From NCBI RefSeq assembly GCF_947179165.1, contig NC_077243.1, positions 51,071,001 through 51,135,000 of the forward strand: a stretch of 64,000 nucleotides of DNA. The letters are read 5' to 3'. The stretch's first letter is position 1; every line of letters starts with the position of its first letter. The notes beneath the pieces are model-generated. The model ran no database searches. It had not been told where the DNA came from and saw only the letters and a program-made list of their open reading frames with translations. Shown here one piece after another: positions 8,225-47,168 of this stretch. A program made the position numbers and the translations under genes. This stretch comes from Solanum dulcamara (taxonomy: Eukaryota > Streptophyta > Magnoliopsida > Solanales > Solanaceae).

Positions 8225-9145
8225 ATTTCATAATTTTGCAAGCATATGACAAGAAAAGTTGAGATGTAAAGATTTCAAGTAATTGAGCAAGGACAACTTA
8301 ATACCTTTGGTTTGGGTAGAGGGGAAAAGATGAGGGTATCTCTTAATCATATCCGCTTCTGCTTCCCATGTTGCACTTTCTATTTGTCGATTCCTCCAAA
8401 GGACTTTAACAGATGCAACTTCTTTGTTCCTTAATCTCTTAACTTGCTGGTCCAAAATTTCCACAGGAACTTCTTTATAGGTCAAGTTTTCTTCAACATT
8501 CACTACTCCCATAGGTACAATAGAACTAGGATCACCCACATATTTTTTCAACATAGACACGTGAAACACCGGATGAACCATGGCTATTTCCAATGGTAAT
8601 TCCAACTCATATGCAACCTTACCAACACGTCTCACGATTCTATAAGGCCCTACATATCTAGGGATCAATTTCCCTTTCTTACCAAATCGAACCATACCTT
8701 TCATGGGTGAAACCTTTAGATATACCCAATCATCCATATTAAACTCAATATCCCTTCTTCTAGTGTCAGAATAGGACTTTTGACGACTTTGAGCCATCTT
8801 CAACCTTTCTCTAATGATCTTGACCTTTTCTAAAGTATCAAGTACAAAATTGGGGCCCAGTAAGGTCATCTCACCTACTTTGAACCAACCAACCGGTGAT
8901 CTACATTGTCTTCCATACAAAGCCTCAAACGACGCTATCTCAATACTTGAGTGGTAACTATTATTATTGGCAAACTAGATGAGAGGTAGATGATCATCCT
9001 AATTCCCTTTAAACTCCAACACACAAGCCCTTAACATATCCTCTAGTGTTTGAATCGTTCTTTCGGCTTGCCCATCCGTTTGAGGATGGAATGCTGTGCT
9101 CGACTTTACCTTAGTACCGAGGCCTTTTTGAAATGATCTCCAGGA
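8225..9145 (-). pseudogene. Integrase / chromodomain-like fragment between X1 and X2
   Basis: Minus strand, with an open frame of 230 codons at 8228-8920 that continues upstream with stops to about 9145. The pieces in order are SFQKGLGTKV with TDGQAERTIQ (end of the integrase catalytic core), [21 protein letters not shown], then the SH3-like DDWVYLKVSPMKGM, PRYVGPYRIVRR, HPVFHVSMLKKYVGDPS and finally KEVASVKVLWRN with a TWEAEADM..YPHLF tail, which is the chromovirus C-terminal region. It belongs to the same lineage as D. It lies opposite to the LTR fragments on either side, so it is not the interior of an element made of X1 and X2. It is one of the best-preserved coding pieces in the window but lacks the integrase zinc domain and the first catalytic residues. 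Confidence 0.85.
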
Positions 9146-19275: not shown

Positions 19276-20084
19276 ATCAAGCTGAAACTGACCTTGCTAT
19301 GGCGGAGAGTAGACCTCGTGATAGCGATGACCAAAAAGGTCAACGTGAATCAATTCCTCTTCATGATTGTGCGAGGAGACCCTTGCAATTGCAACCAAAG
19401 GCCTTGTGAATGCGAAGGGTAGTAAGGCCTGAAACATTAGTTGTTGCATCAGTTGAGTTGGCCATTCCAAAATCTTTGACAAGGAGCTCGGGACTCATTC
19501 CAAATCCTCTACAAACAAACGAGATATGCTACCCCACCAAATTCAACATTGTAAACTCAATGGTGCATTGAAAATATCCATATGAGCTCATTTTAATTAA
19601 AATTGGGTCTTACACCCAAATATCATTTTAAGGAAACAACCACAACAGACCTCGAGATTACACTAACATCCTCGAAAAGCGTATGAAGGTTCATTCTAGA
19701 CATAACTCGACATTCTAGAACTAACCACATATACCAAAATTTTCAACCAAGTGCGTTTTTCAAGGATGTTAACCAGAGTGAATCTTAGTCCAAATTTTAA
19801 AGGCTAAAGAACCAACCGATCTCAAACTCCCAGTAATTGTCTCAATACTCATACTAACTATGGTACCAACCTAATTTTACTATTTTAGAGCTGATGGAAC
19901 TGTTTAAATTCTGTTCTATGGTCGTTTACTTGAAGTAATGACCAAAACCAACTTTTTAAGTTATAAAAATTCCAAAAATAGGGAAATTGGCCTAAAATCC
20001 AAATGAACGACCAGGCGACTGAACAGTCAGCGCAAGCAAGTGATAAATGACTTAAGGTCGCTACAGGAACGCTCTAAATAAAGA
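19276..20084. other. Non-coding LTR-like sequence, unassigned
   Basis: A minus-strand LTR-type start, TGTAAGACCC, occurs at about 19615 and may head an LTR piece running left to about 19280 that contains repeated CGC/GCG-rich words. The part from 19616 to 20084 is AT-rich and without motifs. There is no convincing coding sequence. The 61-codon frame in here has no recognisable domain. Confidence 0.35.
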
Positions 20085-20227
20085 AAAGGAAGCATTAAGG
20101 GAAAAATGCCCTTGAGAATCATTATAGAGTACCATTCTTTAAAATTAAATAAAGGATTATTTTGTTGTTAATAATAATGAAAAAAATTAAGTTTATTTAA
20201 AAAAAATACAAAAGGAAAAAAATAAAG

Positions 20228-20286
<59 letters not shown>

Positions 20287-21077
20287 AATTTTTATTCCAA
20301 AGTGTCAAGGTAATTATTCTCTTCCTTTCCACTAAACTTTTATGTGATTATGAACATATCTTTAGGTTATATTTATAGAGAAATAATGATGAAATAATAA
20401 AATATGGCCTTAGATTTCTTAGCATAAAATCTTGATTTGGAGGTCAAATAACGACCCGTTTTAGCTGAAATTTGATGTATAAGTTTGTTTTATTATGGGT
20501 GAATATAATCTGAGAGAAAATTTTATATTCAAATTTGGGGTGACTTTTTGACTTGATTTTTGAGTCAAAAATAAATATAGTAATATGGGCATCATTGAAT
20601 TCATATTCTTATAAAGGTTATGTATTTAGACAGATTTTGATCATTTGAAAGCGTTATGAAAGGTTCAAGTTTTGAAGTGATTGTTCAATTATTTAAGGCA
20701 AGTGGACTTCTTGACCCTTGTTAAGTGTATAAAATTATGTATTTTCGGTTGTTTGTGTAGGGGAGTAATGAGACTTGGTGATGGGTTGACCTGTTCATAG
20801 TGAATGATCTTAATGATGAAAAATGGATAATAATAGGAAACTTGCTTATATATTGATGTGTGATATCTTAATAATGGGTTGGAAGGCCTATTGATTTATT
20901 GATGTTGTATCATGATTGTGTTGTTTGAATTGTGAAGTGTTATGAAAATGGTCACTCCTCATTATTTGTGTAAACATGCCTATTTGGATTTGTTTTGAGA
21001 CAAGATTATGAAAAGTGTTATATGAACTGAGGGAGTATAATCAATCAAAAAGGATGTAATATTTTGAGGGTCATGCC
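20085..21077 (+). repeat. LTR-like remnant of family F
   Basis: The stretch at 20290-20375 (CCAAAGTGTCAAGGTAATTA, TTATGTGATTATGAACAT) matches the LTR at the right window edge (63919-63995), so this is an older copy of that LTR in the same orientation. The start is not clear. It ends at about 21077 where a CACTA-like terminus begins. No coding capacity is visible. Confidence 0.55.
20231..20282. repeat. (TA)n microsatellite
   Basis: About 26 perfect TA dinucleotides in the family F LTR remnant. The LTR copy at the right edge of the window has an A-rich tract instead, so the repeat expanded after insertion. Confidence 0.95.
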
Positions 21078-21597
21078 ACACACTACTAGAAATTGAGCCT
21101 ACGACAATAGTTTTTTAAACAACGAATCTCAAACTGTTGCTATAGAGAGTCTATTGCAATAGTTTAAATTATCCCCAAAAGTATTGGATGTTGTTGTTAT
21201 AATTTAGCCATAAAACCATTGCAACTCTATTAAAAACATTGCTATAAACTTAGCTATAGCAACGATTATGTAAACTATTGCGTAAAGCCTTTATGACAAC
21301 ATTCTATAAAATAATTTATGTATAAGAACAGTTATTTACTCCCTCCATAATTTCCCCCGCTTATTTTTCATAGCCCACAAATGAGATATTTATATTTTTT
21401 TCTTTAATAAAAAAACACACAACTTCAGACAAATCCAGAACACACAAACCTTTTCTCACTTCTCTCTTTAGACAAACTCAATTTTCTCTCCATTGGTTTT
21501 AGAAATATCCATCATTTTTGTTCACTTTTTAAACAACTATGTTGAAATATTGTTGGAGAATGACTGGAGGATAAAAAAGATCATTTTAGTAGTGTGT
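21078..21597. mobile_element. CACTA-like transposon terminus or small non-autonomous copy
   Basis: It starts CACTACTAGAAATT at 21081. Subterminal copies of GTTGCTATAG / CTATAGCAAC / ATTGCAATAG in both orientations run from about 21105 to 21290, as in plant CACTA (En/Spm) elements. A matching inverted end, TAGTAGTGTGT, lies at 21587-21597 and pairs perfectly over 11 bp with ACACACTACTA at 21078-21088, giving a candidate element of about 0.5 kb. The usual 3-bp direct duplication is not seen, so the right end is uncertain. No transposase is present. Confidence 0.55.
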
Positions 21598-21746
21598 TTA
21601 AGATTCTAGTGAATTAGGTTTTGCTTCTCTGTGATTTTTGCCAAAGTGAGAAATCTTTGAGGTTTTCTTCTTTAATCTCTTCTTTTCTCTTTAATCTTTG
21701 AGGTGTATTCGTAGAACTTTCATAGCTCGTGTGCAACTTAAATGCT

Positions 21747-23160
21747 ATGAATACTCGTGTGCAACTTAAATGCTGAAAAGTCAGGGATGGTTGATATTCG
21801 TATTACTTTCATGTTAAATAGGTTCAAGAGACGATGAGGCAAACGTTTTAAGAGTAATCCGTAAGAGGTATGTAAAGCTAACGTTTCCTTCTTTTCACAT
21901 GTTTTTGGCATAAGTATGTAAGGCTTAGACTTTCTTTTGGCATGTCTTCCGCATAAGTGTATTAAGCTAATCTTACTTTTTGGCATGGTTTTTATGAAGC
22001 AAGTATATGACTTTTATATGATTTCAAGAAAGTTCCTATTCGTAGAGCCGCTAGGATGGATAACTTTTTGATTTCCAAAATATATTTTATTACGCTTTGA
22101 TATGAGTATAAAATTCCAGAAGTTCTATTTGGATATAACCTATAGTAACTTTTAAAAGGTACTTGATATGACTCTTGTCTTGATTTTTGAATAATAACTC
22201 ATTTTGTTAACTCAATCGAGTATCAAACATGATTTAAAGTGCATTTAGTTTCTCACTACTCCACTCGTGGATTCCTCAATGCTTCCTTCACCGAGCCCAA
22301 GTCAGGTTTTGTTAATATATTGACTTCTCTGCATTATTCGTCATGCCCCGACATGAGGGAATAGGTACGACCTATACATGGGTTTGATTTGTGGAGTTAT
22401 GATGTGCCATGTACACCTATGATATGATATGATCTGATATGACCATATGATATGATATGACATGTTACAGAGATATTCCCTACTCTGGAGTTATGATGTG
22501 CTGTGGCGCCAGTGAAGAGGCGGCGACCACATTTTGTATTTGTTCACTGAGTCCCATAATGGGGTCGGATATGACATATGTTTTTCTACATACATTATAT
22601 GTGGTTATGAAAAGCATTTTGATATTCTGGATATTTTGCTCACTTTTGTACCTTCTGTTATTGTAATGGCTTTACTTGTTACGGTCCATGTTTTACATAC
22701 TCAGTACATATATCGTACTGACCTTCTGTTCTCCGGGGGGCTGCATTTCATGCCCACAGGTACATATATTAATTTTATAGATCCGCCAGCTTAGGGTTTC
22801 CACTCAGCAATATTGGAAGTGCTCTGCTGTTCTAGAGCCTAACTTTTGATATTGGTCATTTGATATATATATTTGTTTATTCAGGGGTACAACGGGGCCC
22901 TGTCCCGTCATATGACTAGGCTAGCATTCTGTAGAGGTCTGTAGACTTGTGATGTGGGTTGTGTATATATGTTTTGGGCTTTGTGTTCCGTGATGGCCTT
23001 AACGGCCCTCATGTGCTACATCTGTTCTCATGTGCTCTCTAGTGGCCCCTATTTTGATTTCTACTTTTATTTATTCTGCTAACACGCTAAGTGGGGCTAA
23101 GGCTATGTATGGGTGTCCAACTCGAGCACCAGTCATGGCCTATGGAGTTGGGTTGTGATA
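21747..23160 (+). repeat. 5' LTR of G, 5'-truncated
   Basis: Homologous to the G 3' LTR from about 26246 to its end. It contains the conserved block at 22697-22745 (TCAGTACATATATCGTACTG) and ends GGGTTGTGATA (CA changed to TA). At the left break, a 21-bp word CTCGTGTGCAACTTAAATGC + T occurs twice, at 21726 and 21754, which marks the junction. Confidence 0.8.
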
Positions 23161-23164
23161 AAAG

Positions 23165-23176
23165 TGGTATCAGAGC
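23165..23176 (+). other. G primer-binding site (tRNA-iMet)
   Basis: TGGTATCAGAGC, a perfect initiator-Met site, four bases after the LTR end. The downstream leader CAGTTCGTCCTTGGAGTGTC is shared with B and N. Confidence 0.9.
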
Positions 23177-24261
23177 AGTTCGTCCTTGGAGTGTCTATAG
23201 ACTGTGTCTAGTAGAGTCTTGTTTACCGGTGTGTTGTGCACCACATCAATAAATAGGAGGCTGCAGGACATTTATGATGCTACCTTTCTTTCATATCTAA
23301 GATCGTACAATAGAGCCAAGTCATAAGGAATGAAATTCCTCATACTAACTTGTGATTTTAGTAGAAGGACAACATCGATAGAAGAAATTAACTGACGATA
23401 TTGGAGGTTACAAGGCACGAAGCTAAGCAAAGGCACGAAAGATATACGTCAGGTGAGGTATTGAAGTATGATTGACATATAAAGTTAAAAATGGAAAGTA
23501 AAAGTAGACAGGCCAGGGTAACAGATGCAGTTTAAGTTGGGCAGATGAGGTAAGTCCATCATTTTTTTACTATTTTTGATATTGGGTGCCCTGTGTGGTT
23601 GCGGTATGATATGATATGAATATATATGTTGGCCCTATGAGGCATTATTGTCATTTTCTACATCCAGGTGTTGAGATAGTAAGAAATATAGAGGAAACTC
23701 TATCCAAATTTTCCTAGAAATAAAAAGAGAAGGAGATACAAGGTTGTGGTATGCCTTGTCCATAATAAGAATGAGATTTGACTAAACTATGAGTAAGGCT
23801 GACCATGAGAAATAAGTTAATGACTAAAGTGATGGTAATAGTAACAAGGAGGTCAATATGGGTATGGAAAAAGAATCTGGAAAAGACTGGTGAGACTAGG
23901 GGATGATTTCAAGATGACACCTAGATCTTGATATAACGAGATATTAAGGCACCAACTGAGTTGATACACCAGGATTAACGGTGCCAAGCTAATTACTGAT
24001 TGGGATGAATGGAATGTGGCTTTAAATGCACTGCTACATTAAGGATATTACTCGAGTACTAGTGTTCAAACTAGAGTTGGTACTGTATATTGAGGATTCT
24101 AAGTACCTCATGATTGTATTAAGGTTTCATACATGGGTAACCTAAAGTATAGGTGATGTAAAGGAAGATATGTAAATAGTATAGTATACTAAATAGGTTG
24201 GAAAGGACTCATATGCATTTGGAAAGTTAGGAATAAATAGACAATGACATGGATACACCCT

Positions 24262-24273
24262 AAAGGGGGGAAG
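24262..24273 (+). other. Internal polypurine tract of G
   Basis: AAAGGGGGGAAG preceded by ATACACCCT. It nearly duplicates the terminal tract but lies about 400 bp inside the element. The same motif with the same lead-in occurs in B and N. Confidence 0.6.
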
Positions 24274-24367
24274 TGGACAAGAGAAGTACAAGAGTAAGAG
24301 AAAATCAACTGATGCTACCATATGTAAATGGTAACGCTTAAAATTCAAACGAGATCCCATAAGGGAT

Positions 24368-24467
24368 GGATGTGATCATACCAGCACTAATGCACCAGAA
24401 CCCTCAGAACTCTAAAGTTAAGCATGCTTTGGCGAGAGGAGTACTAGGATGGGTGACCCCCAAGAAG
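24368..24467 (+). ncRNA. 5S rRNA-derived segment in element G (truncated)
   Basis: Roughly 100 nt align along nearly the whole plant 5S rRNA, in sense with the element: GATCATACCAGCACTAATGC near the 5' end, then CAGAACTC, AAGTTAAGC in the A-box and GTACTAGGATGGGTGACC in the C-box. By hand against the plant 5S consensus from memory I count about 12 differences (about 88% identity). The last ~18-20 nt, the closing 3' stem strand, are missing, so this is not a functional 5S gene. Both internal Pol III promoter boxes are largely kept. A homologous segment occurs in N at the same relative place. It is typed ncRNA because it is a partial 5S copy within a retroelement, not an rRNA gene. Confidence 0.85.
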
Positions 24468-24656
24468 CGAAAGAGGAAAGGAAACACAAGTATCCGTACC
24501 TATTCCCTACGTCTACAAGTAATCCTAACCTTTGGAACTCTGATATTGATTGCTCGATGAAAGTATATGTTATGGAAGCAAGATAGAGGAACTCTCCATA
24601 TAGTTGGTATAAAATCCGGAGGAAGGTCTTGGTTCACATTCGAGGATGAATGCTCT

Positions 24657-24670
24657 AAAGGGGGGAAGGA
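24657..24670 (+). other. Terminal polypurine tract of G
   Basis: AAAGGGGGGAAGGA directly before the 3' LTR start TGTTAC at 24671. Standard plus-strand priming site. Confidence 0.85.
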
Positions 24671-27666
24671 TGTTACACACAGTACTTTGGTACCTTGGGA
24701 CACTTTTTAAGTTTCTGGAAAGGCTCTTAAGTTTCTTTGAAGTCATCATGTGAGTCGGGTAATCTATAACGCTATCAAATAATTCTAAGTAAAGGAGAAG
24801 GAGATACTCCATAAGAGAGAAGATTGGAAATAGGGTTATAAGAATCCAAAAGAGGTTGAAGGTTAAGTAGTGAGTCGTAGGACTCAACTTACTTGTGAAA
24901 GCTATTACTTGTGAAATTGTACATACTAAGATACTTGAGTACACGTCGATCTTAAGTAGCAAGGTTACATAGGCTCTTGAGGTAAGATAAGATTATGAGC
25001 TCATGAAAGAGAAATAAGAAAACTACGCGCCTAATCGAAGAAAGTAAGTGATGAACCTACTTGGAAAAGTAGGTGATTCTCCTACTTAGGGTCAACTAGG
25101 TGATGCAGCAGCTTGGGTGGACCCCACGCTGCCACATGGCAGCCAATAATTGGAGGCATGATTGAGGTGGAGCCCTAAGGGTCTGCCACGTGTCACCCCT
25201 AGGGGTCTGTTATGTGGCACCTTCTAAGGATGCCTATATATATGTATGGATGACTAAGGATTCATTTTCAGCTATGGACTTGGCCAAAAATCGAAAGCAA
25301 AAATGTGAGAACAAGAGAGAGGCAGCCATGGGTTGCTCCAATTTAAGGTAAGCCCTACGATTTCGTTCCGTGAATTAATTATTTAAGGTATGCCACGGAT
25401 ACATTAAGGGGATTAATAGATTAAAATTACTCTTTGGGGAATAAAATAAGGGACACGAACAGTCCGCAACTTTCAGCATGTTAAGGAGTTTCCGAATTTA
25501 ATTTTCAGCAAGTTTGGGAAGCCGTTTGTTAAGGTATGGCTTGGTTCACTTATCCCACGTTTTGGTAAGGGTTTGGACATGATATTAAGGTGTTAATAAT
25601 ATAAACTTATGGCTTGTAGAAGCACAAGATGGATAGGAAAAAACACAACATTTCAGCCACAATTAAGGAACTTTCAGGTTAGTTTTTACAAGCTTTGGCC
25701 AATTTCGGGTAAGGTGAGGTCTTTTCTTTCAATTTGAAGTTTATGGTGTGTTTAGGGAGTGTATTACACGCCTTTGTTATGGATTTAAGTATAAAAATTC
25801 CATATAGGTGCTTGACATTCGAAACAAACTAAATTGGAGTCACTATAGTTAAATTATAGATGAGGCAAGGTGTTGTGCTTGTGGTGTGCTTCTGCAGGTG
25901 TGTGGTGGTGTGTTGAAGGCCCTAAAAGTATTCTAAAATATGTGTGGGGGCTTATGGTTGCATCCACACGACCCCTCATTTCATATAATTAAAGGTTTTG
26001 CGAAATAAAGACTAGAAACCCTATTTTTGTATCATAATTTTCAGCAACTTGTTTGGAGCTTATGTTGTGTAATGTTGCCATGTTTTATTTGTATATGAGA
26101 TGAAGGTTTTTGTTTTTGGTTGGCTGTAGTGATTATGTATCTAATTGGAAATTCGTATAGGGCATGTTATAGGGGAGGTGCTCTCCGATTTTCGTTAACT
26201 CCTTAACTATCTAAAGAACTAGTCGAGAAGAAGAGCGAAGAAATGAGTTCTATGAATACTCGTGTACAACTTAAGATTATGAAAAGTCAGGGATGGTTGA
26301 TGTTCGTATTACTTTCATGTTAAATAGGTTCAAGAGATGATGAGGCAAATGTATTAAGAGTAATCTGTAAGAGGTATGTAAAGCTAACGTTTCCTTCTTT
26401 TGGCATGGTTTTTGCATAAGTATGTAAGGCTTAGACTTTCTTTTGGCATTTCTTTGGCATAAGTGTATTAAGATAATCTTCCTTTTTGGCATGGTTTTTG
26501 ATGAAGCAAGTATATGACTTTTATATAATTTCAAGGAAGTTCCTATTCGTAGAGCTTCTAGGATGGGCAACCTTTTAATTTCCAAAAGATATTTTATTAC
26601 GCTTTGATACAGAGTATAAGATTCCAAAAGTTCTATTTTGATATAACCCATAGTAACTTTTAAAAGGTACTTGATACGACTCTTGTCTTGAATTTTGAAC
26701 AATAGCTCATTTTGTTAACTCCATCTAGTTTCAAACATGATTTAAAGTGAATTTAGTTTCTCACTACTCCACTCATGGATGCCTCAATTCTTGCTTCACT
26801 GAGCCCAGGTCAGTTTTTGTTATCGTGCATACTTCTCTTCATTGTTCGCCATGCCCCGGCATGAGGGGCAGGTACGACCTGTACATGGGTTTGATTTATG
26901 GAGTTATGATTTGCCATGTACACCTATGATATGATATGATCTGATATGACCATTTGAAATGATATTATCTGTTATAGAGATATTCCCTACTCTGGAGTTA
27001 TGATGTGCTGTGGCACCAGTGAAGGGGCGGCGACCACATTTTGTATTTGTTCACTGAGTCCCATAATGGGGCCAGATATGGCATATGTTTTTCTGCATAC
27101 ATTATATGTGGTTATGAAAAACATTTTGATATTCTAGATATTTTGCTCCCTTTTGCACCTTCTGTTCTTGCAATGGCTTTACTTGTTACGGTCCATGTTT
27201 TATATACTCAGTACATATATTGTACTGACCCTCTGTTCTCCGAGGGGCTGCATTTCATGCCCGCAGGTACATATATTAATTTTGTAGATCCGCCAGCTTA
27301 GGGTTTCCACTCAGCGATGTTGTAAGTGCTCCACTATTCCGAAGCCTAACTTTTGATACTGGTCATTTGATATATATATTTATTTATTTAGGGGTACGAT
27401 GTGGCCCTGTCCCGTCATATGACTAGGCTAGCATTCTGTAGAGGTCTGTAGACTTGTGATGTGGGTTGTGTAGATATGTTTTAAGCTTTGTGTTCCTTGA
27501 TGTCCTTAACGGCCCTCGTGTGATACATCTGTCCTCATGCGCTCTCTAGCGACACCTTTTCAATTTCTACTTATGTTTATTCTGCGAATACGCTAAGTTG
27601 GGCTAAGGGTATATATAGGTGCCTAACTCGGGCACTAGTCATGGCCTACAAAGGTGGGTCATGACA
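24671..27666 (+). repeat. 3' LTR of G
   Basis: Start TGTTACACACAG, end GGTGGGTCATGACA, 2996 bp. It contains a palindromic array (about 25048-25116), CACGTG at 25187-25192, a TATA stretch at 25235-25247, the donor-like AAGGTAAG at 25345-25352 and the conserved TCAGTAC hairpin block near 27210. The homologous 5' LTR part differs by several percent by eye, so the insertion is not recent. Confidence 0.85.
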
Positions 27667-28891
27667 CTCTAGTAGTCTTTGTTAGAAAGAAGGATGGTTT
27701 TATCCGTATTTGAACTGACAACCATCTATTGACCAAGGTCACAATTAAGAATAAGTATCCCATTCCAAGGATTGATGGCTTATTCTATCAATTTCAAAGA
27801 GCAACCTACTTTTCAAAGATTGATCTTCGATCAGGTTATCATCAACTCCGAGTAAGGAAATGTGACATTATGAAGATGGCTTTTAGAACTCGGTATGGTC
27901 ACTTTGAATTCTTGGTTATGTCTTTTGGACTAATGAATTCTCCTACAGCTTTTATGAATTTGATTAACATGTTATTCAAGAAATATTTGGATACATTTGT
28001 AATTGTTTTCATTAATGATATTTTAATTTATTCTTGGAGTGAGGAAAAGCATACCGATGATTTAAAGATTGTCTTTAAAATTTTGAAGGATTGCCAGTTG
28101 TTTGCTAAGTTTAGCAAGTGTGAATTTTGATTGAGGTTAGTTGCTTTCCTTGACCATATTATCTCCGATGAAGGTATTATGGTTGATCCAAAGAAGACCA
28201 AAGAGGCTAATAATTGTCCTAGACTATTATCCCCTTCCGATATTTGAAGTTTCTTGGGCCTAGCTATTATTATAGAAGGTTTGTGTAAGGTTTCTCTTCC
28301 ATTGAATCGCCCTTTACTACTTTCACTCAAAATAAGTTGAAATTATAATGGTCCGAGGCATGTGATAAGATATTCAAGAGTTGAAGGATAGACTTAAGTC
28401 TGATTCGGTGTTGACCTTTCCAGAAGGTTTTGATGGGTTTATTGTATATTTTGATACTTCACGAGTTGGTCTTAGTTGTGTGCTAATCTAGAATGGTAAA
28501 GTGATAGCCTATGCTTCTAGACAACTCAAGGTTCACGCAAAGAATTACCCAACCCATGACTTGGAGTTATCGACTGTGGTATTTTCCTTGAATTTATGGA
28601 GACACTACTTGTATGGTGTCCATGTGGATATATTCACCAATCATAAGAGTTTGCAATATGTGTTCACTTAAAAGGACTAGAATCTTCGACAAAGGAGAAA
28701 ACTTGAATTGTTGAAGGATTATGACACGAGTGTGATATACCATTTGGGTAAGGAAAATGTGGTTGTTGTCGCTCTTAGTAAATTATCCATGGACAGTGTT
28801 TCCCATATTAAGGATTAGAAGAAAGAGTGAGTTTGGGATGTTCATAGATTAGCCTGTTTGGGTGTTTAATTTGTTGACTCCAAGGATGTGG
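27667..28891 (+). pseudogene. C pol part 1: RT and RNase H
   Basis: The frame opens with VVFVRKKDGF and runs openly over 27729-28130 (133 codons): [35 protein letters not shown] (first catalytic Asp kept), [12 protein letters not shown] and then [12 protein letters not shown]. Here the catalytic FIDD is FIND, with the first Asp changed to Asn by the codon at 28014-28016. After a stop at 28129, RT thumb and RNase H continue in shifting frames (DPKKTKEANN, and a decayed RNase H at about 28430-28620). The piece stops at 28891 exactly at B's LTR. It is inactive both by stops and by the catalytic change. Confidence 0.85.
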
Positions 28892-31880
28892 TGTTACACC
28901 CCACACTCCTGAGCTCAAAATGTCTTTTAAGCTTCTTAGAAGTTAGCATGTGAGCCAGATAATCTACGACACTATCAAACGACTCTAAGGCAAGAAGAAT
29001 GTGATACCCCATAGTAGAGAAGGTTGGAAATAAAGTCATAAGAATCTGAAAGGAATTGAAAGCCAAGTAATGAGTCGTAGGACATGATTTACCTACGTAA
29101 GATACTAACTTAGAAGTCTTACATACCTAAGCTACTTGAGGATGTACCAATCTTACGAAGCACGGATTGCATAGGATCTTAAAATAAGACGATATTATGA
29201 GCTCACGAAAGAGAAATAAGGAAAAGACGTGCCTACTCGAAGCAAATAGGTGATGCACCTACTTGGACAAGCAGGTGATGCACCTACTTAGGGTCAAGTA
29301 GGTGATGCAGAAGTTTGGGGTGGACCCCATTGCCACGTGGCAGCATGTGAGGGGATGCATAGGCTGAGATGGTGCTCTAGGAGTCTGCCACATGTCACCC
29401 CTGAGATATACTTCATTTTCAGCATGTTCTCTTTGGAAAAGAGAAGAGGAAAACGTTGACGGCAAGAGAGGGAAGCCACGGGTTGGCTCAATTTAAGGTA
29501 AGGTTTTTGAATTCGTTCCGTGAATTAATTACTTAAGATATCCTACGGTGATATAACGGTGTTTAATAACGAAAAATTTCTATTTGAGGCAGCGAAGAAG
29601 CGACACAAACAGCCCACAACTTTTCAGCATACTAAGAGAACTTCCGAGACAAGTTTTAGTAAGTTTTAGCAAGGTCTGGCTTGGTTCTCTTCTTCCACAT
29701 TTTTGTAAGTATTTGTACAGGTTATGAGAGTGTTAATGATATAAATTTATGGTTTGGAGCAGCACAAAATGGATAGCAAGCAGCCACGAAATTTCAGCAC
29801 GTTTAGAGAAGTTCTGAGGCACAATTTTGGTGAGTTTTTGCCAATTTCGGGTAAGATAAGGTCTTTTGTTCCAATTTGAAGTTTATGTTGTTATTATAGG
29901 GTGTATTAAGAACCTTTTATGCTGATGGAAGTGTAAAAATGTCATAGAAATGTTTAACATTCGAAGCAAACTAAATTGGAGTCGCTATAGTTAAATTGTA
30001 GTCGAAGCAAGGTGTTGTGCTTGTGGTGTGCTGCTGAAGGTGTGTGGTGGTGTGTTGAAGGGCCTAAATGTATTCTAAAAGTGGTGTGGGGGATGCTGGT
30101 TTCATCCACATGACCCCTCGTATCGCACAATTAAAGGTTTTGCATAATAAAGACTAGAATCCCTATTATGGTATCGTAATTTTCAGCAAGTTGTTTGGAG
30201 CTAATATTGTGTAATGTTGCCATGTTTTTGTTGTATATGAGCTGCAGATTTTTGTTTTTGGTTGGATGTAGTGATTATAGATCTAATTGGAAATTCGGAT
30301 AGGGCATTTTATAGGGGAGGTGCTGCCCGATTTCCGTTAACTCCTTAACTAACTAAGGAAATAGTTGAGAAGGCGAGCGAAGAGATGACTTCTATGAATA
30401 CTCATATGTAACTTAAGATGCTGGAAAGTCGAGGGTTGTTGATACTCATATTTCTTTCATATTATATAGGTTCAAGAGACGACTAGGCGAATGTGTTAAG
30501 AGTAATCCGTAAGAGGTATGTAAAGCTAACGTTTCCTTCTTTTGGCATGTTTCTGACATAAGTATGTAAGGCTTAGACTTTGTTTTGGCATGCCTTCTGC
30601 ATAAGTGTATTAAGCTTATTCTATCTCTTGGTATGTTTTGGGCACATATATGTAAAGCTAATCTTCCTTGTTGACATGGTTTTTATAAAGCAAGTATATG
30701 AGTTTTATATGATCCCAAGGAAGTTCCTATTCATAGAGCCGCTAGGATGGCCAACTTCTTGATTTTCCAAAAGATATTTGTTATGCCTTGTATGTCTATA
30801 TGATTCCCAAAAGTTCTATTTTGATATAACCTATAGTAACTTTCAAAAGGTACTTGATATGCCTCTTGTCTTGATTTTGAATGATAACTCATTTTGATTA
30901 TTCCATCGAGTCTCAAATATGATTTAAATTATATATAGTTTCTCACTAATCTATTCGTAGATGCCTCAATGCTTCCTTCATCGAGCCTGGGTCAGGTTTT
31001 ATTATTGTGCGTACTTCTTTGCATTGTTCGTCGTGCCCCAACGTGAGGAGGCAGGTACAACCTGTACATGGGATTTGTGGAGTTATGATGTGCCATGTAC
31101 ACATATGATATGATATGATCTTATATGACCATCTGATATTATATGATCTGTTATGGAGATATTTATTCCCTACTCTAGAGTTATGATATGTTGTAGCGCC
31201 AATGACGGGGCAGCGACCACAATTTATTCACTGAATCCCATAATGGGGCCGGATATGGCATATGTTTTTCTGCATACCTTATCTGTGGTTATGATAAACA
31301 TTTTGATATTTCTGGACACCTTGCTCATTTTTGCACATTCTACTTTGGTAATGACTTTACTTATTACAGTCCATGCTCTATATACTCATTACATATATCG
31401 TACTGACCCCCCTTTCTTCAGGGGCTGTATTTCATGCGCGTAGGTACATATGTTAATTTTGGAGATCCGCTAGCTTAGGATTTCCACTCAGCGATGTTGG
31501 AAGTACTCCATTGTTCTGGAGCCTAACTTTTGATAATGGTCATTTTATATATATTTGTTTGTTTATTCAGTGGTACGGCGGGGGCCCTATTCCATCATAT
31601 GTTACCATTACTATTTATAGAGGTATGTAGACATGTGTATGTGGGTAATGTGTGAGTTTTGTGTGATTATGGTCATACAATGAGTTATAAATGTTATTAT
31701 GCTATGCAGCCTTGATGGCTTGCTTGACCTTTCATTACATGATGCAAATGAAAGAGGTTATACGTGTATGAAAATTTTATCACCCACTAGGTTCATATAT
31801 ATAGTTCTTATATCTGATAGATACATATACAGGGATCCAGGTCGGACCCCAATCGTGGCCCACGGGGTTGGGTCGTGACT
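28892..31880 (+). repeat. 5' LTR of B
   Basis: Start TGTTACACCCCACACTCC, end GGGTCGTGACT (CA changed to CT), 2989 bp. Compared with the 3' LTR it has lost a stretch of the G-box/TATA promoter region near 29390-29410: the sequence goes from CATGTCACCCCTGA directly to GATATACTTCA. Donor-like AAGGTAAG at 29495-29502. Confidence 0.85.
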
Positions 31881-31884
31881 GAAA

Positions 31885-31896
31885 TGGTATCAGAGC
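31885..31896 (+). other. B primer-binding site (tRNA-iMet)
   Basis: TGGTATCAGAGC, perfect, four bases after the LTR end and followed by the family leader CAGTTCGTCCTTAGAGTGTC. Confidence 0.9.
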
Positions 31897-33084
31897 AGTT
31901 CGTCCTTAGAGTGTCTATAGACCGTGTCTAGTAGAGTCTTGTTTATCGGTGTGTTATGCACCACATCCATAAACAGGAGGCTACAGGATATTTAGGATGC
32001 TACTTTCTTTCATATCTAAGATCGTGCGAAAGAGCCGAGTAATAGGGAATAAAATTCCTCCTACTAACCTATGCTTTCAACAGAAGGGAAACATCGATAG
32101 AAGAAAGTAACTAACGATACTGGAAGTTACATGGTACACAGGTAAGCAAAGGCACGAAGGACATATGTTAGGTAAGATGTTGAAATACGAATGACATACA
32201 AAGTGAAAGGAAAAGTAACCAGGAAAGCTTAACAGGTGCACTTTGAGTTGGTCACATTAGGTAAGTCTATTATTTTATACTTTCACTGATATTGGGCACC
32301 CTATGTGGCTGCGATATGAGATGATATGACTATATATATATGTGCCCTGTGAGGCACTATTGGCATTTTCTACGTGCAGGTGTTGAGATAGTAAGAAATA
32401 CAGAGGAAAATCTGCCCAAATTTTCTTAGAAATAAGAAGAGAATGATATATAGGGCTGTAGTATGTCTTAAAAGGTTGTGCCCATAACAATGATGATATT
32501 TGACTAAAAGAGTATGGTTGACCTCAAGAAATGAGTTAATTACTGAATTAATGGCAACAGAAACTAGAAGGTTGATACTGGTATAGTAGAACGAAGTTGG
32601 AAAAGACCTATAAGCCAATAAAGATGATTTAGAGAAGATTAATAGATCAGGATAAAATGATATAGTGAGGTATTGCCTGAATTGATTCATAGGGATAAAC
32701 TATGCTGAGTTATAGTTGAAAGAAGTAATAGTATGATTAAAAAAAAGTGCAAGGGAAAAAGAATTGTGATGGAAGTGAAGTATTAATAAGACAGTTTGTG
32801 AGATATTAAGGATAAGACTAGCTAAGAAGGGTAAGTAACCCATAGTAAAAATTGTGAAGAAGGTCAAGCAGTGTTAGACTATGGGACTAAATGTGAACAG
32901 GATACCATATGAATACAATGAAGGTCGTTATGAGAATAAGTAAAGCTTAGTAAGGAAGATAGACATAGGTAACTGAATATGAGGAAGGAATGAAAGTAGA
33001 AGGTATGGTCATAGATTTAAAGAAATAGTACAACAACGTGGTGCTAAGGTAGAACACAAACAGATAATGATATGGGTACATCCT

Positions 33085-33096
33085 AAAGGGGGGAAG
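33085..33096 (+). other. Internal polypurine tract of B
   Basis: AAAGGGGGGAAG with lead-in GGGTACATCCT, the counterpart of the internal tracts in G and N. No 5S-like segment follows here. Confidence 0.6.
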
Positions 33097-34029
33097 TGGC
33101 TTCAAGTAAGATCCCACACTGGCATGAATTAACAAGATCGAAAAGCCAGTAATGAACGGATAGAAGCCATAACGCCAAAGATAGTGTTGAGAAATATTAG
33201 TAAGGACCTTAAATAGAATAACATCAAAGAATGGGTACATATAAAGGGGATGAATACAACAAGGGAATCACAATGAGAACTTAAAGATATTGTAAGGGAT
33301 AGCCAGGCTACACTTGACTGAAGGTCAAGATGTTGGTAAAAGAGTTACTGGCCACAGGCATTGTGAGATACAAGTAGCCAAAGAGAAGGGATAAAGAAAC
33401 CTCTTCGATATTAGAATATGATAAGACTTAAGAGTAAGTGAACGAAGCAAAAAAAGTATGAAAAAAGAGACTATAAGTGTGTGTTAGTACAATGACACGT
33501 GTAGAGAAAAGTAAGCCAAGAGCAGAAAAGACTATGACTAAAATGAAACGCATTTCATGTAAGTTGCACAAGAATAGTTGTGCAGCCTGCGAACATTCAT
33601 ATACTAAGACTAAGATCAAGTGATTACATGATAAAAAGAAGGTGGTAATAACAATGTAATTGCCATATTTAGAATCTATTAAAGAAAAGTGTATGATGGT
33701 TCGAGGCAGAACTAGTAAGATATAATTAGTATTAAGGACAAAAGCCATAGTGGAGTCCTGACCTCGACTAAAGGAGGTAAGACATTGGTATAGCGACGCT
33801 AAGACATTCTCTAGTCTGCTTTAAGTACCTACACACATTGGTGTAAGGATTACAATATGATGTGTGGTAAGACAATAGGAGAGAAGATTTGAGTAAAAAC
33901 GTAGGATAGCATGCCTAAAGGTTTACAAGTTGGATTAAGAAGAATGGTACAATAGCTTAAACAAAAATTTAGCACCAGAGGCTTGATAGCCTATTACAGG
34001 GGTGGGAAACCCGACTCAGAAATGGAAAG

Positions 34030-34620
34030 TAGCCAATATTTATTATAGTACGGGCTGACCTCGCATTCTAAGGAACAATGAATTCATAAGAGTTATGGAG
34101 GATAGGCTGACGGAATCAACCCATTTCCTGCCAGTTAGGAAGGCATGTTCAGCTGAGGGTTATGTGAGATGACATAGCGAGGGTATAATGAGACTTCATG
34201 GAGTTCCCACACCTATTATCTCAGACAGGGAAGTTCAATTTATCGCTAACTGCTGGAGATCATTCTGGAAGGGATTGGGAATATAGATGACTCTTAGTAC
34301 GACATTTTTCCCTTTGATTAATGGATAGGCCCAGAGGGGATCCAACAATTTATTGATGAAGTAAATCTTATTTAAGAAAAAAATAGCTATTAACAGCCTA
34401 GAGTTAACAAAATTCATACGCAGATAGTCGATGTCAACCTTTCGAGTTGAAATAGATGAATGAGTGTTTGTGAAAGCATCACCAAGGCAAGGTTTAATAA
34501 AATTCGACAAGAAAGGGATAAATTGGTCCTTATCGTACATTTCGTAGAATAGGCAAAGTTGCCTATACATTGGACCTACCATCCGATTGGAAGCAATACA
34601 TTCAGTTTTCATGGATCAAT
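34030..34620 (+). pseudogene. B integrase fossil
   Basis: Plus strand, mixed frames: DRLTESTHFLPVRKA near 34110, then LHGVP and IISDREVQF near 34190-34240 (second catalytic Asp kept), WRSFWKGLGI and, near 34320-34340, a box where the catalytic Glu should follow. The codon there (34332-34334) is CAG, Gln, and the preceding Gln is a TAG stop. The integrase zinc domain and all of gag-RT are absent. It is inactive, and the Glu to Gln change is shared with N. Confidence 0.75.
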
Positions 34621-34952
34621 GCTCTGCAAATATATAAGTGACCCTCCTAGAATATTCTTTATGGATGAAGTCTACATAATAGAGGATTTATCCTACGAGG
34701 ATTGACCTATCTCCATCTTGGGTCGGTAAATTAGAAGGTTGCAAACTAACGACGTGGCTCCCATCAAAGCATGTGATGAGACAAAGATAGAGAAGAAATA
34801 TTCGTATGGAACCCTACGTCTATAGGTAATCTAAACTCCTAAATCATTGATGTTGAAGAGTAGGAGGCCTATGGGTGACAACTGGTATAGAGAATCCCCA
34901 AAGTCCCAGTGAGACCTTATAAGATTAAATAATATTCGACGACGAATGTTCT

Positions 34953-34966
34953 AAAGGAGGGAAAGA
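34953..34966 (+). other. Terminal polypurine tract of B
   Basis: AAAGGAGGGAAAGA immediately before the 3' LTR start at 34967. Confidence 0.85.
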
Positions 34967-36529
34967 TGTTACACCCCATACTCTTGAGCTCAGAATGTCT
35001 TTTAAGATTCTTAGAAGTTAGCATGTGAGTCGGATAATCTAAGACACTATCAAACGACTCTAAGGCAGGGAGAATGTGATACCCCATAGTAGAGAAGGTT
35101 GGAAATATAGTCATAAGAATCCGGAAGGAATTGAAGGCCAAGTAATGAGTCGTAGGACTCGATTTACCTACGTAAGCTACTAACTTAGAATTTTTACATA
35201 CCTAAGCTACTTAAGGATGTACCAAGATTATGAAGCATAGATTACATAGGGTCTTAAAATAAGATGAGATTACGAGCTCACGAAAGAGAAATAAAAAAAT
35301 GACGCGCCTACTTGAAGCAAGTAAATGATGCACCTACTTGGAAAAGCAGGTGATGCACCTACTTAGGGTCAAGTAGGTGATGCAACAGCTTGGGGTGGAT
35401 CCCACTGCCACATGGCAGCGTGTGAATGGTTGCATGGGTTGAGGTGGCGCACTTGGATGCTGCCACGTGTCACCTCTAAGGGTATGCCACGTGGAAGCTT
35501 CTAAGGAGGTGCATATATATATTATGCTGATATATACTTCATTTTCAGCATGTTCTCTTTAGAAAAAAGAAGAGGAAAACGTTGAAGGCAAGAGAGGGCA
35601 GCCACAGGTTCGCTCAATTTAAGGTAAGGTTTCCGACTTCGTTCCATAAATTAATTATTTAAGGTATCCTACGGTGATATAGCAGTGTTTCATAACGAAA
35701 AATTTCTATTTGATGCAGCGAAGAAGCGACACAAACAGCCCACTACTTTTCATCATACTAAGAGAACTTCCGAGACAAGTTTTAGTAAGTTTTAGCAAGG
35801 TATGGCTTGGTTCTCTTCTCCCATATTTGGTAAGGGTTTTTACAGGTTATGAGAGTGTTGATGATGTAAATTTATGGTTTGGAGAAGCACCAAATGGATA
35901 GCAAGAAGCCACGAAATTTCAGCACGTTTAGAGAAGTTTTGAGGCATAATTTTGGCGCATTTTGTCCAATTTCGGGTAAGGTAAGGTATTTTCTTCCAAT
36001 TTGAAGTTTATGGTGTTGTTATAGGGTGTATTACACACCTTATATGCTGCTATAAGTGTAAAAATGTCATAGAAATATTTAACGTTCGAAACAAATTAAA
36101 TTGAAGTCGCTATAGTTAAATTGTAGTCGAAGCTAGGTGTTGTGGTTGTGGTGTGCTGCTGAAGGTGTGTGGTGGTGTGTTTCAGGGCCTAAAATTATTC
36201 TAAAATATGTGTGAGGTATTTTGTTTGTAGACACACGACCCCTCATTTCATACAATTAAAGGATTTGTGAAATAAAGACTAGAAACCCTATTTTGGTATC
36301 GTAATTTTAAGCAAGTTTTGTGGAGCTTATATTGTGTATTGTTGCCATATTTTAGTTGTATATGAGATGGAGATTGTTGGTGTCATTTTTCTGTAGTGAT
36401 TAGGGATCTAATTGAAAATTCAGATAGGGCATGTTATAGGGGAGCTGCTGCCCGATTTCCGTTGACTCCTTAACTAACTAAGGAACGAGTCGAGAAAGTG
36501 AGCGAAGAGATGACTTCTATGAATACTCG
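34967..36529 (+). repeat. 3' LTR of B, left part
   Basis: Starts TGTTACACCCCATACTC. It carries the palindromic array (about 35322-35383), CACGTG at 35464-35469 and 35488-35493, TATA near 35513-35523 and AAGGTAAG at 35621-35628. It is interrupted at 36529 by N and continues at 47169. Confidence 0.9.
36525..36529. repeat. Target-site duplication of N (left copy)
   Basis: ACTCG directly before the N 5' LTR. The identical ACTCG follows the N 3' LTR at 47164-47168. A 5-bp duplication is the gypsy norm. Removing N and one copy restores the continuity seen in B's 5' LTR near 30395-30410. Confidence 0.9.
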
Positions 36530-36909
36530 TGTTACACCCCGCACTCTTGAGCTCGGAACGTCTTCTTAAGTTCCTTAGACACTATCATGTGAGCCGGATA
36601 AGCTACGATACTATCAAACAACTCTAAGGAAAGAAGATTGTGATACCTCGCGAGAAGGGAGGTTGGAGATAGAGTCATAAGAATCCGGAAAGAGTTGGAG
36701 GCTAAGAAATGAGTCATAGGACTCGATTTACTTACGTAAGAAACTAAGTTAAGAGTCTTATACACTTAAGTTGCTTAAGTATATATCAAGCTTACGTAGT
36801 ATGGATTATATAGGCTCTTAAAGTGAGACGAAATTACGAACCCGCGAGGAAGGGAAAAAGACGACGCATGGCAGCCAATAGAGGAGCGACACGTGGAAGC
36901 ACCTCAATC

Positions 36910-36957
36910 AAGCAGGTGATGCACCTACTTAGGGTCAAGTAGGTGATGCAGCTGCTT
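36910..36957. repeat. Palindromic array in N 5' LTR
   Basis: Two 21-bp near-palindromes, AAGCAGGTG-ATG-CACCTACTT and AAGTAGGTG-ATG-CAGCTGCTT, separated by AGGGTC. The two units are also inverse to each other, so a long imperfect hairpin is possible. Counterparts occur in G (25048-25116), B (29233-29306 and 35322-35383) and the N 3' LTR (44053-44100). Confidence 0.8.
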
Positions 36958-36975
36958 GGGGGAGGTGGACCCCTC

Positions 36976-37070
36976 TGCCACGTGGCAGCCCCTAATTGGA
37001 AGCATGACACGGTGGCCAATCATGGCTTGACACGTGTCACCCCTTGGGACCACATATATGTATGTATATT
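36976..37070 (+). promoter_or_regulatory. N 5' LTR promoter: G-boxes and TATA
   Basis: TGCCACGTGGCA at 36976-36987 and TGACACGTGTCA at 37028-37039 are perfect 12-bp palindromes around CACGTG, the plant G-box/ABRE core bound by bZIP and bHLH factors. A TATA-rich stretch, ATATATGTATGTATATTA, follows at about 37054-37071. Activity is inferred only. Confidence 0.65.
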
Positions 37071-37191
37071 ATGGATATAATTCAGTATTGGGTATTCAAA
37101 CTTCAGTTTATTCATCAAATTTCCAGCAAGAAACGTGAACAAAGAACCCTAAAGCTAAGGAGAGAAAATTGCGATGGCTTGGGAAAAAAAT

Positions 37192-37286
37192 AAGGTAAGT
37201 CCCATTTTCGTTTCGTAAATTAATTAAGTAGTGTATAATACAATGATATGGAAGTATTAGTAGTATAAAATTAGGATTTTGTGCAG
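37192..37286 (+). other. Candidate intron in LTR leader
   Basis: AAG|GTAAGT with GT at 37195 and a possible acceptor TTTTGTGCAG ending at 37286, 92 bp apart. The ATG at 37174 opens a seven-codon stretch ending at the donor. The donor word AAGGTAAG is kept in all five LTRs that cover this point, and the acceptor in four of them. Confidence 0.45.
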
Positions 37287-40002
37287 CAAAAATCAGACAG
37301 CAAGCTGCCACAATGATTCAGCACGTAAATAAAATTCCGAGGCACGATTTCGGCAAGTTTTAGTCAATTTCGGGAAAGGTATGTGCTTACCCTCTAATTT
37401 AAAGTTTATGAAGTTAAATTAGGGTGTATTAAACACCTTAGAGTCTGCTGGAAGTTGGGGAAAAGGTTCGAAAAGTTCAGCGTTCGGAATAAACGAATTT
37501 GGAATCGCTATAGTTAAGTTGTTGTCGAAATAAGGTGTTGTACGCGTAGGGGCTGCTGCTGGTTGTGTTGTGGCGTGTTGAAGGGTCTAAAAGTTATCTA
37601 AATTAGGTGTGGGAGCTGCTGTTTTCATCCACATGACCCTCCGCTTTGCAATTAAAGAATTCGCGAAAGAAAGATTAAAAACTCTAGTTTTGGTATCTTA
37701 GTTTCGAGTGAATTGTTGGGGGTTTATATTGTGCAGTTTTGGTCATAATATATATATGTATGGGCTGCTGGTTGCATTGTTGGTTGGCTGCAGGTGCTAA
37801 GGACATGGTTGGTAATTTAGATAGGGCACATTATAGGGGAGGTGCTGCCCGATTTTCGTTAACGCCTTAACTAGTTAAGGAACTAGTCAAGAAGGCGAGC
37901 AAAGGGATGAATGTTATGACTACTCGTGGGTAGTCTAAGTTGTGGAAAAGTCCAAGGTTGTTAATACTTACTTTACTTTTATGTTAAATAGGTTTCGAGG
38001 ACAATGATGTGGACGTGATTAAGAGAAGTCCATACAAGGTATGTGAAGCTTTCCTTTGGCGTGTTTTTGGAATAGATATGTAGAGCTATTCTTCTTTTCT
38101 TTTGGCATGTCTTAGATATAGGCTATAAATGATATGTATATGATATTTGGGATTCAATCCATTCGTAAAGCCCTGAGTATGAGTCGAGACTCTTGTTTAC
38201 TTCTTGGTATTAGAACTTCTGCAATAGCTGAGTCATTGCCTTTTTGTCTTCTATGTGATGAAAACTAGTACATGTAAAGCCTATTTCTTCTTTCCTTTGG
38301 AATGGCTTAACTTTAAGTGAAATGGTATATGATATAGGTTGAGAGGTAATTCCATTTATGAGCTCTGATTGTAACTCGTGACTTGTAGTCACTCCTAAAC
38401 ATTAAAAGTCTGAAAGTAGTCAAACTACTATTCTCGAGCCTGCTATATAATGAATAGAAAGTAGAGGTACCAGCTCCTCTCTTTTTAAAGGCTCTAAAAT
38501 GGTAAATGCGTCTGATTTGCATAAGTTGAGTCTTTGACTAGATAACTGTGTCTCTGATTGCATAACTGTGTCTCTGATTGCATAAACCATGTTTCTGATT
38601 GCATAAATTGTGTGGCATTATTCTGATGCATGTTTGTGATCCCTGAAGTCCCAACTGATGTAAGCCCTAGTGACATCTAAAGGGATACCTCGGATAATTA
38701 CTCCCCTAGTATTCAGGTGACGGTTCACTTGACTATTTCATCGAGTCTCAGATAATGACTTAGTTGCATATGGTTTCTCACTACTCTACTCGTGCATACT
38801 GTAACCCATCCTTCCTCGAGTCCCACAATGGGCCGGGATATGTTATCGTGCACAGTATTACTACTTCTTTCACCGCATCCCAGGCCAGATGTGTATAGTT
38901 CCACGCACGAGGAGACGATGCCGTACGTGAGGTGTGATATATGTTATATGTTATGACGATACGATTATTCACCGAGTCCCGGGCCGGCTGTAATATGATA
39001 GTATATGTGGTGAAATAAGGAAGGAACACCGAGTCCCTCCTTAGAGGGCCGGGTACATATGTATATTATGATGGTACGCTATAGACGTACACCACTTCAT
39101 TCACCGAGTCCCTCACTAAAGGGCCGGATACTTTATGTAGGCATGCATATGAGATTAAAGCAATACATTGTGACCCTGAGCCCCGCAGTGAACTGGGTGT
39201 GATACGATGATATACATGATAAGATGATACCATATACGATGGTATGATACCGTATATGATGATATGATGAAATGAAATGCATTATGATATGATGAGATGT
39301 GATTATGAAGAAGTGATTATAACACCGAGTTCACTAGAGGGCCGGGCACAGCATATGATGATGTGTATGATTTACGTGTCCTAAGGTGCAGGTATAGTAA
39401 TTGATTTAGTTATTATACTTTTCCCCTGCATCCCTATTTCAGTTATGATCTCAGTTACGATGTGTTATGCTTTACATACTCAGTACATATATCGTACTAA
39501 CCCCCTTTTCTCGGGGGGCTGCGTTTCATGCCCGCAGGTATAGATGTTTATTCTGGAGATCCATCAGCGTAGGAGTTCCTCTTAGCTGTGTCGGAAGTGC
39601 TTCACTGTTTTGGAGCCTAAATTTTGATGCTGGTCACTTAATGTATATATTTGTACATTCAGGGGTACGGCGGAGGTCTTGTCCCGCCATATGTTAATGT
39701 TACTATTCTTAGAGGTCTGTAGATATGTGTATATGTGGGTTGTTTGTGAGTCAGTTTCGATGTTGCCTATTCGATATGTTGTGAATGTTTTTGTTATAGC
39801 AGCCTTGTCGGCTCGCGTGCCCTTTCATGATATGAAACAAATGAAAGAGTCTACATGTACATGAAAAAGTTTTAAACTATAGAGGTTTTTGTATATAGTA
39901 TCACATCACACACGGTTCAACTTAAGTGTAGTTGATAAATACGCATAAGAGGGTCCAGGTCGGACTCCAGTTGCGGTCTACGGGGTTGGGTTGTGACAGA
40001 AG

Positions 40003-40014
40003 TGGTATCAAAGT
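40003..40014 (+). other. N primer-binding site (tRNA-iMet, two changes)
   Basis: TGGTATCAAAGT four bases after the 5' LTR end, with two transitions from TGGTATCAGAGC. The same leader follows as in B and G. Confidence 0.85.
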
Positions 40015-41985: not shown

Positions 41986-41998
41986 AAAAGGGGGGAAG
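41986..41998 (+). other. Internal polypurine tract of N
   Basis: AAAAGGGGGGAAG with lead-in GGGTACACCCT, about 1.7 kb before the terminal tract and about 95 bp before the 5S-like segment. Confidence 0.6.
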
Positions 41999-42092
41999 TG
42001 GACAAAAGAAGTACAAGAGTAAAAGAAAATCAACTGATGCTATCGCATATAAATGGGGACGCTTAAACGTCAAACGATACCCCATAAGGGAT

Positions 42093-43535: not shown

Positions 43536-43658
43536 CTTGGAACTCGTATATTAATTACTTGGATGAAAATGTATGTCATTCCAGTAGAAAGGAATCTCCT
43601 TATGATCCGTATAAAGTCTTAAAGAAAGATTTATTCAACATTCGGGGACGAATGTTCT

Positions 43659-47163: not shown

Positions 47164-47168
47164 ACTCG
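47164..47168. repeat. Target-site duplication of N (right copy)
   Basis: ACTCG, identical to 36525-36529. Confidence 0.9.

Follow-up and report, generated by a model that had tools for sequence, protein, structure and literature searches.

Results

Elements G, E, and F in the Window

The window analyzed here is the whole 64,000-nucleotide stretch of contig NC_077243.1 of Solanum dulcamara from position 51,071,001 to 51,135,000 (forward strand). Three related LTR elements, denoted G, E, and F, were found to lie in it as close neighbors, and their features are collected in Table 1. Element F spans 36530-47163 and is ~10.6 kb in length, and element E spans 28892-48626 and is split by F. The 5′ LTR of G was determined to be truncated, with 21745-23160 alone remaining, which corrects the earlier outline of this element. 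The LTR divergences correspond to ages of ~1.4 (F), 4.0 (G), and 6.1 (E) million years at a rate that we take to be 1.3e-8. The arrangement is a three-level nest in which F, with the TSD ACTCG, resides inside E, and E interrupts a chromovirus coding region (27676-28896 and 48627 to about 50400, with the reverse transcriptase at 27714-28130).

Table 1. Features of Elements G, E, and F in the Window
Feature	Element	Position	Strand	Remarks
5′ LTR, truncated	G	21745-23160	+	90.4% to 26250-27659
PBS	G	23165-23176	+	TGGTATCAGAGC
Internal (second) polypurine tract	G	24262-24273	+	106 bp upstream of 5S start
5S rRNA-derived piece	G	24368-24467	+	Rfam; alignment to host 5S
Chromodomain-like tail, directly 3′ of the 5S piece	G	24464-24505	+	EAKEERKHKYPYLF; 37% over 19 aa, E 9e-4
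3′ polypurine tract	G	24657-24668	+	
3′ LTR	G	24671-27666	+	
Internal polypurine tract (no 5S piece)	E	33085-33096	+	best 5S score in E interior 26
TSD, 5 bp	F	36525-36529 and 47164-47168		ACTCG
5′ LTR	F	36530-39998	+	96.4% to its 3′ LTR
Internal polypurine tract	F	41987-41998	+	
Second 5S piece (5S 1-103)	F	42093-42195	+	80.6% to host 5S
Chromovirus integrase C-terminus/chromodomain remnant	F	43253-43531	+	40% over 81 aa, E 3e-17
3′ LTR	F	43673-47163	+	

The PBS of both E and G is TGGTATCAGAGC, and that of F is degenerate (TGGTATCAAAGT). The second polypurine tract that the preliminary description had placed near the 5S sequence of G was located, and the same 12 letters, AAAGGGGGGAAG, form the internal polypurine tract of G, E, and F. 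A tract that is identical in three diverged elements could be a central polypurine tract. Element E has the internal polypurine tract and the later interior in common with the 5S-bearing elements but carries ~350 bp of other sequence (33097-33447) in place of their spacer and 5S sequence.

The longest plus-strand open stretch in the interiors of G, E, and F does not exceed 93 amino acids. Gag, protease, reverse transcriptase, and integrase core were not recognized in any of the three interiors. A Pfam scan of plus-strand interior pieces of at least 45 amino acids gave nothing meaningful in 10 of the 11 pieces scanned, and no domain was found by Pfam in the region of the integrase remnant of F. 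A chromovirus integrase ORF elsewhere in the window (8228-8974, minus strand) gave a Pfam match to the Tf2-type SH3 domain above the cut-off and to the chromodomain below it. Element E matches this ORF with 41% identity over 41 amino acids (E value 4e-8). Integrase C-terminal remnants were found in 29 of 30 F-type loci from the genome, and no integrase match was obtained for the G-type loci at an E value of 0.01. The assignment as gypsy derivatives is thus upheld for F and E by their integrase remnants and is likely for G, for which the 19-residue tail in Table 1 is the match. From sequence, the 5S-bearing elements look like non-coding derivatives of a Ty3/gypsy chromovirus.

The 5S rRNA-Derived Piece

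The preliminary description had claimed that a segment of ~100 nucleotides in the interior of G is collinear with plant 5S rRNA in the sense orientation. Both parts of the claim hold. Nucleotides 24368-24461 align with positions 1-95 of the host 5S gene with 89.5% identity, and the rest of the piece, up to 24467, is a decayed form of the word GGGAAG. The piece is found between the PBS and the 3′ polypurine tract and LTR start, in the same direction as the element. In the 10-kb stretch 20000-30000, the Rfam 5S model RF00001 matches 24368-24502 (plus strand) with 39.8 bits against a cut-off of 38 (E value 1.6e-5); the 5S likeness itself ends at ~24467, and the match extends to 24502 only by way of a long insertion. 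Over the whole window, just two Rfam matches reached the cut-off, and both are 5S (element G, and 42101-42202 in F with 38.4 bits). In 256 segment-strand scans of the window with a typical plant 5S query, the local scores were 143 for G and 122 for F, and the next best was 28. The A-box and C-box words reported as largely intact in G are present as quoted (AAGTTAAGC and GGATGGGTGACC).

Copies across the Genome

The genome that was searched consists of 942 Mb in 32 contigs. There are 28,662 first-look candidates for host 5S genes, of which 47 were scored, and most of those scored lie in an array near 63.75 Mb of contig C7 with a spacing of 341 bp. The host 5S has C at position 24 and C at position 93; a typical plant 5S has T at both. 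A 221-bp query from G and a 231-bp query from F returned 3,956 and 1,816 loosely defined first-look candidates, respectively. The best 40 of the former are 89-100% identical over nearly the whole query, and the best 40 of the latter are 94-100% identical.

The genome was searched for LTR elements with interior 5S sequence, as had been suggested at the outset. The internal polypurine tract linked to the 5S start gave 714 exact matches, and the reversed control gave 0. Among the fetched copies, only 9 of the 30 G-type and 23 of the 30 F-type carry the linked pattern exactly, so that the true copy number is above 714. An exact 32-letter pattern from the tail occurs in 13 copies in the genome, and the pattern of the 5S/tail junction gave 0 matches in viral contigs.

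Sixty copies were fetched, 30 per subfamily, picked by their likeness to the two window copies, which are included. The 5S piece is interior and in the sense orientation in these 60 copies. Of the 30 G-type copies, 29 match the 5S sequence from position 1 onward, as do 28 of the 30 F-type copies. The match stops at 101-103 in 28 of the G-type copies and at 95 in the other two (one of which is the window copy), and in the F-type it stops at 103 in all 30 copies. A functional 5S rRNA gene has 119-120 nucleotides and a closed helix I; none of the 60 copies aligns beyond position 103. The internal polypurine tract, with up to two mismatches, lies 105-106 bp upstream of the 5S sequence in 27 of 30 G-type and 29 of 30 F-type copies. 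In 26 of the 30 G-type copies, the 3′ polypurine tract and LTR start lie at +288 to +291, and another G-type copy has them at +194; the range for 29 of the 30 F-type copies is +1520 to +1582. A PBS was identified at -1265 to -1023 in 18 of the 30 G-type copies, and the fetched F-type stretches do not extend that far. No fetched stretch (~3.2 kb) carries a second 5S sequence, the second-best score being at most 31. The 5S pieces are 88.2-95.1% identical to the host 5S in the G-type (median 92.7) and 80.6-85.6% identical in the F-type (median 82.5), and the window copy of G is among the more decayed G-type copies. The interior 5S piece is a family trait with hundreds of copies in this genome.

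Junctions of the 5S Piece

The 3′ edge of the 5S piece falls on GGGAAG or TGGGAAG, a word that also occurs in the codons of the integrase chromodomain. In the host 5S, TGGGAAG occupies positions 96-102, and the chromovirus ORF at 8228-8974 reads ACA TGG GAA GCA at the Trp-Glu of the chromodomain. The G-type frame past ~102 of the 5S, (W/R)EAKEE(M/R)KHKYPYLF, resembles the end of the chromovirus chromodomain, WEAEADMIKRYPHLF, and the frame through the junction word reaches YLF in 22 of the 24 G-type copies in which the word was found. In 6 of 30 G-type copies, including the one in the window, the word is unrecognizable. Of the 30 F-type copies, 24 have kept CCTGGGAAG unaltered; only one of the 30 G-type copies has done so, mostly through loss of the T. 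The junction word therefore has six shared bases in G and seven in F, and we infer the heptamer TGGGAAG for the ancestor because the T is mostly gone in G-type copies. For random pairs of points, at least six shared bases were obtained in 0.15% and at least seven in 0.09%. The integrase ORF and 5S have 10 words of seven or eight letters in common, so that sharing a word of this length is unremarkable by itself; the relevant point is that the junction coincides with one. The partner word need not be that of the chromodomain, since GGGAAG is also found in polypurine tracts.

At the other edge, the upstream flank is no more similar to the host 5S spacer than shuffled sequences are (P = 0.84 and 0.86, for one copy per subfamily). 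The three bases before 5S +1 equal the host spacer in most copies, and the gapless match to the host spacer is 0.40-0.45 over -30 to -1 versus 0.14-0.17 over -60 to -31. Farther downstream, F is like G until ~27 bases past the 5S sequence and is then like E, with the meeting point at AAGTAT.

Insertion at the DNA level from a 5S array was considered and is disfavored, because the upstream flank resembles the spacer no more than shuffles do. The raised match over -30 to -1 is a small doubt, and together with the spacer match near +1 it gives a DNA donor a small probability.

Discussion

The junctions suggest that the 5S piece originated by a jump of reverse transcriptase onto packaged 5S rRNA. 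This reading follows from three features, namely similarity that begins at 5S +1, a 3′ edge within the 5S that coincides with a word common to 5S and element, and coding sequence of the element directly behind that edge. A template-switch accident had been listed in the preliminary description as one option among several, and it is the option favored by the 5S start and the shared word. We regard it as probable that the 5S piece is a reverse-transcription scar left by a jump onto host 5S rRNA and that it was then amplified mostly as a passenger.

In the proposed mechanism, the RNA of a Ty3/gypsy chromovirus-like element would have been undergoing reverse transcription when the enzyme departed at the Trp-Glu codons of the chromodomain. 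The nascent end would have paired with (T)GGGAAG of a co-packaged host 5S rRNA (positions 96-102), the 5S rRNA would have been copied to its 5′ end, and the reverse transcriptase would then have gone back to the element RNA further upstream. The 5S sequence would bridge the resulting internal deletion, and the non-coding element so formed may have been mobilized in trans and amplified, with the 5S sequence carried along mostly as a passenger. The F subfamily would be a recombinant of a G-like part and an E-like 3′ part, joined at AAGTAT. We infer that the donor was RNA, that the jumps occurred in this order, that deletion and capture were one event, that F arose by recombination, and that 5S rRNA is packaged in plant particles. 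The uncaptured parent element was not found, and the bridged deletion is accordingly a proposal. The packaging of 5S rRNA in MLV particles is described in the available text of PMC4997597, as is "patch repair", in which junctions between non-homologous sequences can be splinted by host RNAs through fortuitous microhomology.

An alternative is that the 5S piece has been kept as a putative Pol III promoter or TFIIIA/TFIIIC site that aids the element, either through a short internal RNA that would begin with the 5S sequence and end at the T-run that follows (~260 nucleotides in the G-type and 474 in the F-type) or through a chromatin mark. We consider this rather unlikely. When changes from the host are scored on the commonest state in each subfamily, the G lineage differs at 2 of 103 sites (C47T and the loss of T96) and F at 16 of 103 (P = 0.0013). 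This near-identity of the G lineage to the host exceeds the expectation for a pure passenger, and the unequal change may point to constraint on the G-lineage 5S or to its refreshment, although the relatedness of the copies and the biased picking weaken this indication. In F, where helix II is lost, 2 of the 16 changes fall in the A box (positions 50-64) and C box (80-97), which make up 33 of the 103 sites (P = 0.057), and 3 of 16 fall in these boxes plus the IE (67-72; P = 0.072); the sparing of the boxes is not significant, and T96 was left out of the F changes as an artifact of the gapped reference, the P values being 0.13 and 0.14 when it is counted (17 changes). The segment from the internal polypurine tract to the 5S sequence is the least diverged between the subfamilies, with 8 of 106 sites differing versus 76 of 274 further upstream. 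However, 18 of 103 sites differ within the 5S sequence, and protection is thus strongest in the spacer and its polypurine tract rather than in the 5S piece. Within the subfamilies, the 5S sequence is not more conserved than its immediate flanks in copies that were picked by that very segment. The first TTTT is found at 259-261 in 26 of 30 G-type and at 473-475 in 24 of 30 F-type copies, but that of the window copy of G is inside the 3′ LTR. Similarity to the host upstream promoter region is not above that of shuffles, and a start within the element cannot yield full-length RNA. Judged from the sequences, a passenger is the preferred reading of the 5S piece, with use by Pol III possible. The wider proposal is that 5S rRNA served as the splint that founded a non-autonomous gypsy lineage and was then kept as a putative internal Pol III promoter or TFIIIC site aiding the spread of one lineage to hundreds of copies; this combination is unlikely.

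It is improbable that the 5S sequence was instead brought in by another mobile element, such as a Cassandra-like LTR or a SINE3 headed by 5S. LTRs begin with TG, and in 56 of 60 copies the internal polypurine tract AAAGGGGGGAAG is followed by TG, with the 5S sequence 106 bp on, which resembles a polypurine tract and an LTR start. Cassandra and Ajax both have 5S sequence in their LTRs, according to the accessible portion of PMC10886601. Against such a source, E has the internal polypurine tract without 5S, and the tract must therefore be older than, or independent of, the 5S sequence. Each fetched stretch holds one 5S sequence only, and what follows it in G appears to be a chromodomain-like tail rather than a LINE tail or the end of an LTR.

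It was also proposed that the 5S sequence provides a putative RNA fold for packaging or for L5/TFIIIA binding, and this we find very improbable. The pairs of helix III are mostly kept in both subfamilies, and pair 34-41 (42126 and 42133 in the window) is changed on both sides in F, from C-G to T-A, as the single pair of this kind. However, none of the 60 copies has the 3′ strand of helix I, and nearly every F copy has lost the helix II pairs 14-65, 17-61, and 18-60. The predicted folds of the two window pieces are no better than those of shuffles (z = -0.14 and 0.20), and the same is true of the 103-nucleotide piece of the host. A fold as the function was rejected on the basis of these helix losses and fold energies. 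Chance likeness or an assembly artifact has practically no probability as the source of the match, given the Rfam matches, the local scores, the alignment to the host 5S, and the recurrence of the linked pattern throughout the genome with an empty reversed control.

Plants contain many non-autonomous LTR families, and how these arose can seldom be read from their sequences. In the present family, the two ends of an apparently captured host RNA can be seen, and they suggest a route from a coding element to a successful non-coding one. If the box region of the 5S sequence is used, 5S promoters would have been recruited by LTR elements outside the LTR, and this would be a third way, besides Cassandra and Ajax, for such elements to use 5S. 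For the Solanum dulcamara genome, 5S annotation and copy-number work must separate hundreds of interior pieces from the true 5S genes.

Comparison with Known Systems

The presence of 5S sequence in LTRs is already known from Cassandra and Ajax, and the interior 5S piece is a variant arrangement that was not met in the searched literature; among the titles and abstracts of the open-access papers searched, there is no report of 5S sequence inside a large gypsy element. Cassandra is a TRIM, a plant mini-LTR element with 5S sequence in its LTRs, as outlined in the accessible parts of PMC10886601, PMC10853983, and PMC7215508. The present elements resemble it as plant non-autonomous LTR elements with a sense 5S that includes the A box, IE, and C box. 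In contrast, their 5S sequence is single, interior, and truncated at its 3′ end at 102/103, and their LTRs are ~3-3.5 kb, compared with a whole element of <1 kb. The small-RNA promoter of Cassandra and TRIMp3 is in the LTRs of elements of <1 kb; the 5S sequence here is between the PBS and the 3′ polypurine tract, and F is ~10.6 kb. Ajax, a nemertean TRIM, has a partial 5S in its LTR and is unable to make 5S rRNA (PMC10886601, available text). It is similar in having a partial 5S without the capacity to make 5S rRNA and differs in being LTR-borne and from an animal, in keeping the promoter part only, and in being thought to derive from SINE3. A SINE3 has a 5S head, a LINE-derived tail, and a TSD of its own; in the G-type copies, the 5S piece is followed by a chromodomain-like tail.

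LARDs are defined by long LTRs without coding capacity and are presumed to be mobilized in trans (PMC7215508, in the text available), and G, E, and F share the long LTRs and the lack of coding capacity and may likewise have been mobilized in trans. None of the three has a plus-strand open stretch of >93 amino acids. The LTR pair, TSD, PBS, and polypurine tract are represented by the 96.4% identical LTRs, the ACTCG duplication, and the polypurine tract of F, and by the PBS TGGTATCAGAGC of E and G. No LARD with a 5S piece is reported in the open-access literature searched, as far as the accessible text extends.

The Ty3/gypsy chromoviruses (Tekay/Del-like) are a further known system close to G, E, and F. 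The likeness consists of the integrase C-terminal remnant (81 amino acids in F, 41 in E, and only the 19-residue tail in G) and the PBS word TGGTATCAGAGC, and the difference is that no gag, protease, reverse transcriptase, or integrase core was recognized in the interiors. An origin by abnormal template switching has been described for the long form of the cereal Veju, for BARE-2, and for complex insertions (PMC13317346 and PMC1950507, in the portions available). This is the same kind of origin as that proposed here, but those events involved other element RNAs or unknown DNA and not 5S rRNA. Retroviral patch repair is similar in that a host non-coding RNA is copied into cDNA at a microhomology; according to the accessible part of PMC4997597, those cases are mostly experimental or sporadic, whereas the putative patch described here has multiplied in a plant genome and reached hundreds of copies.
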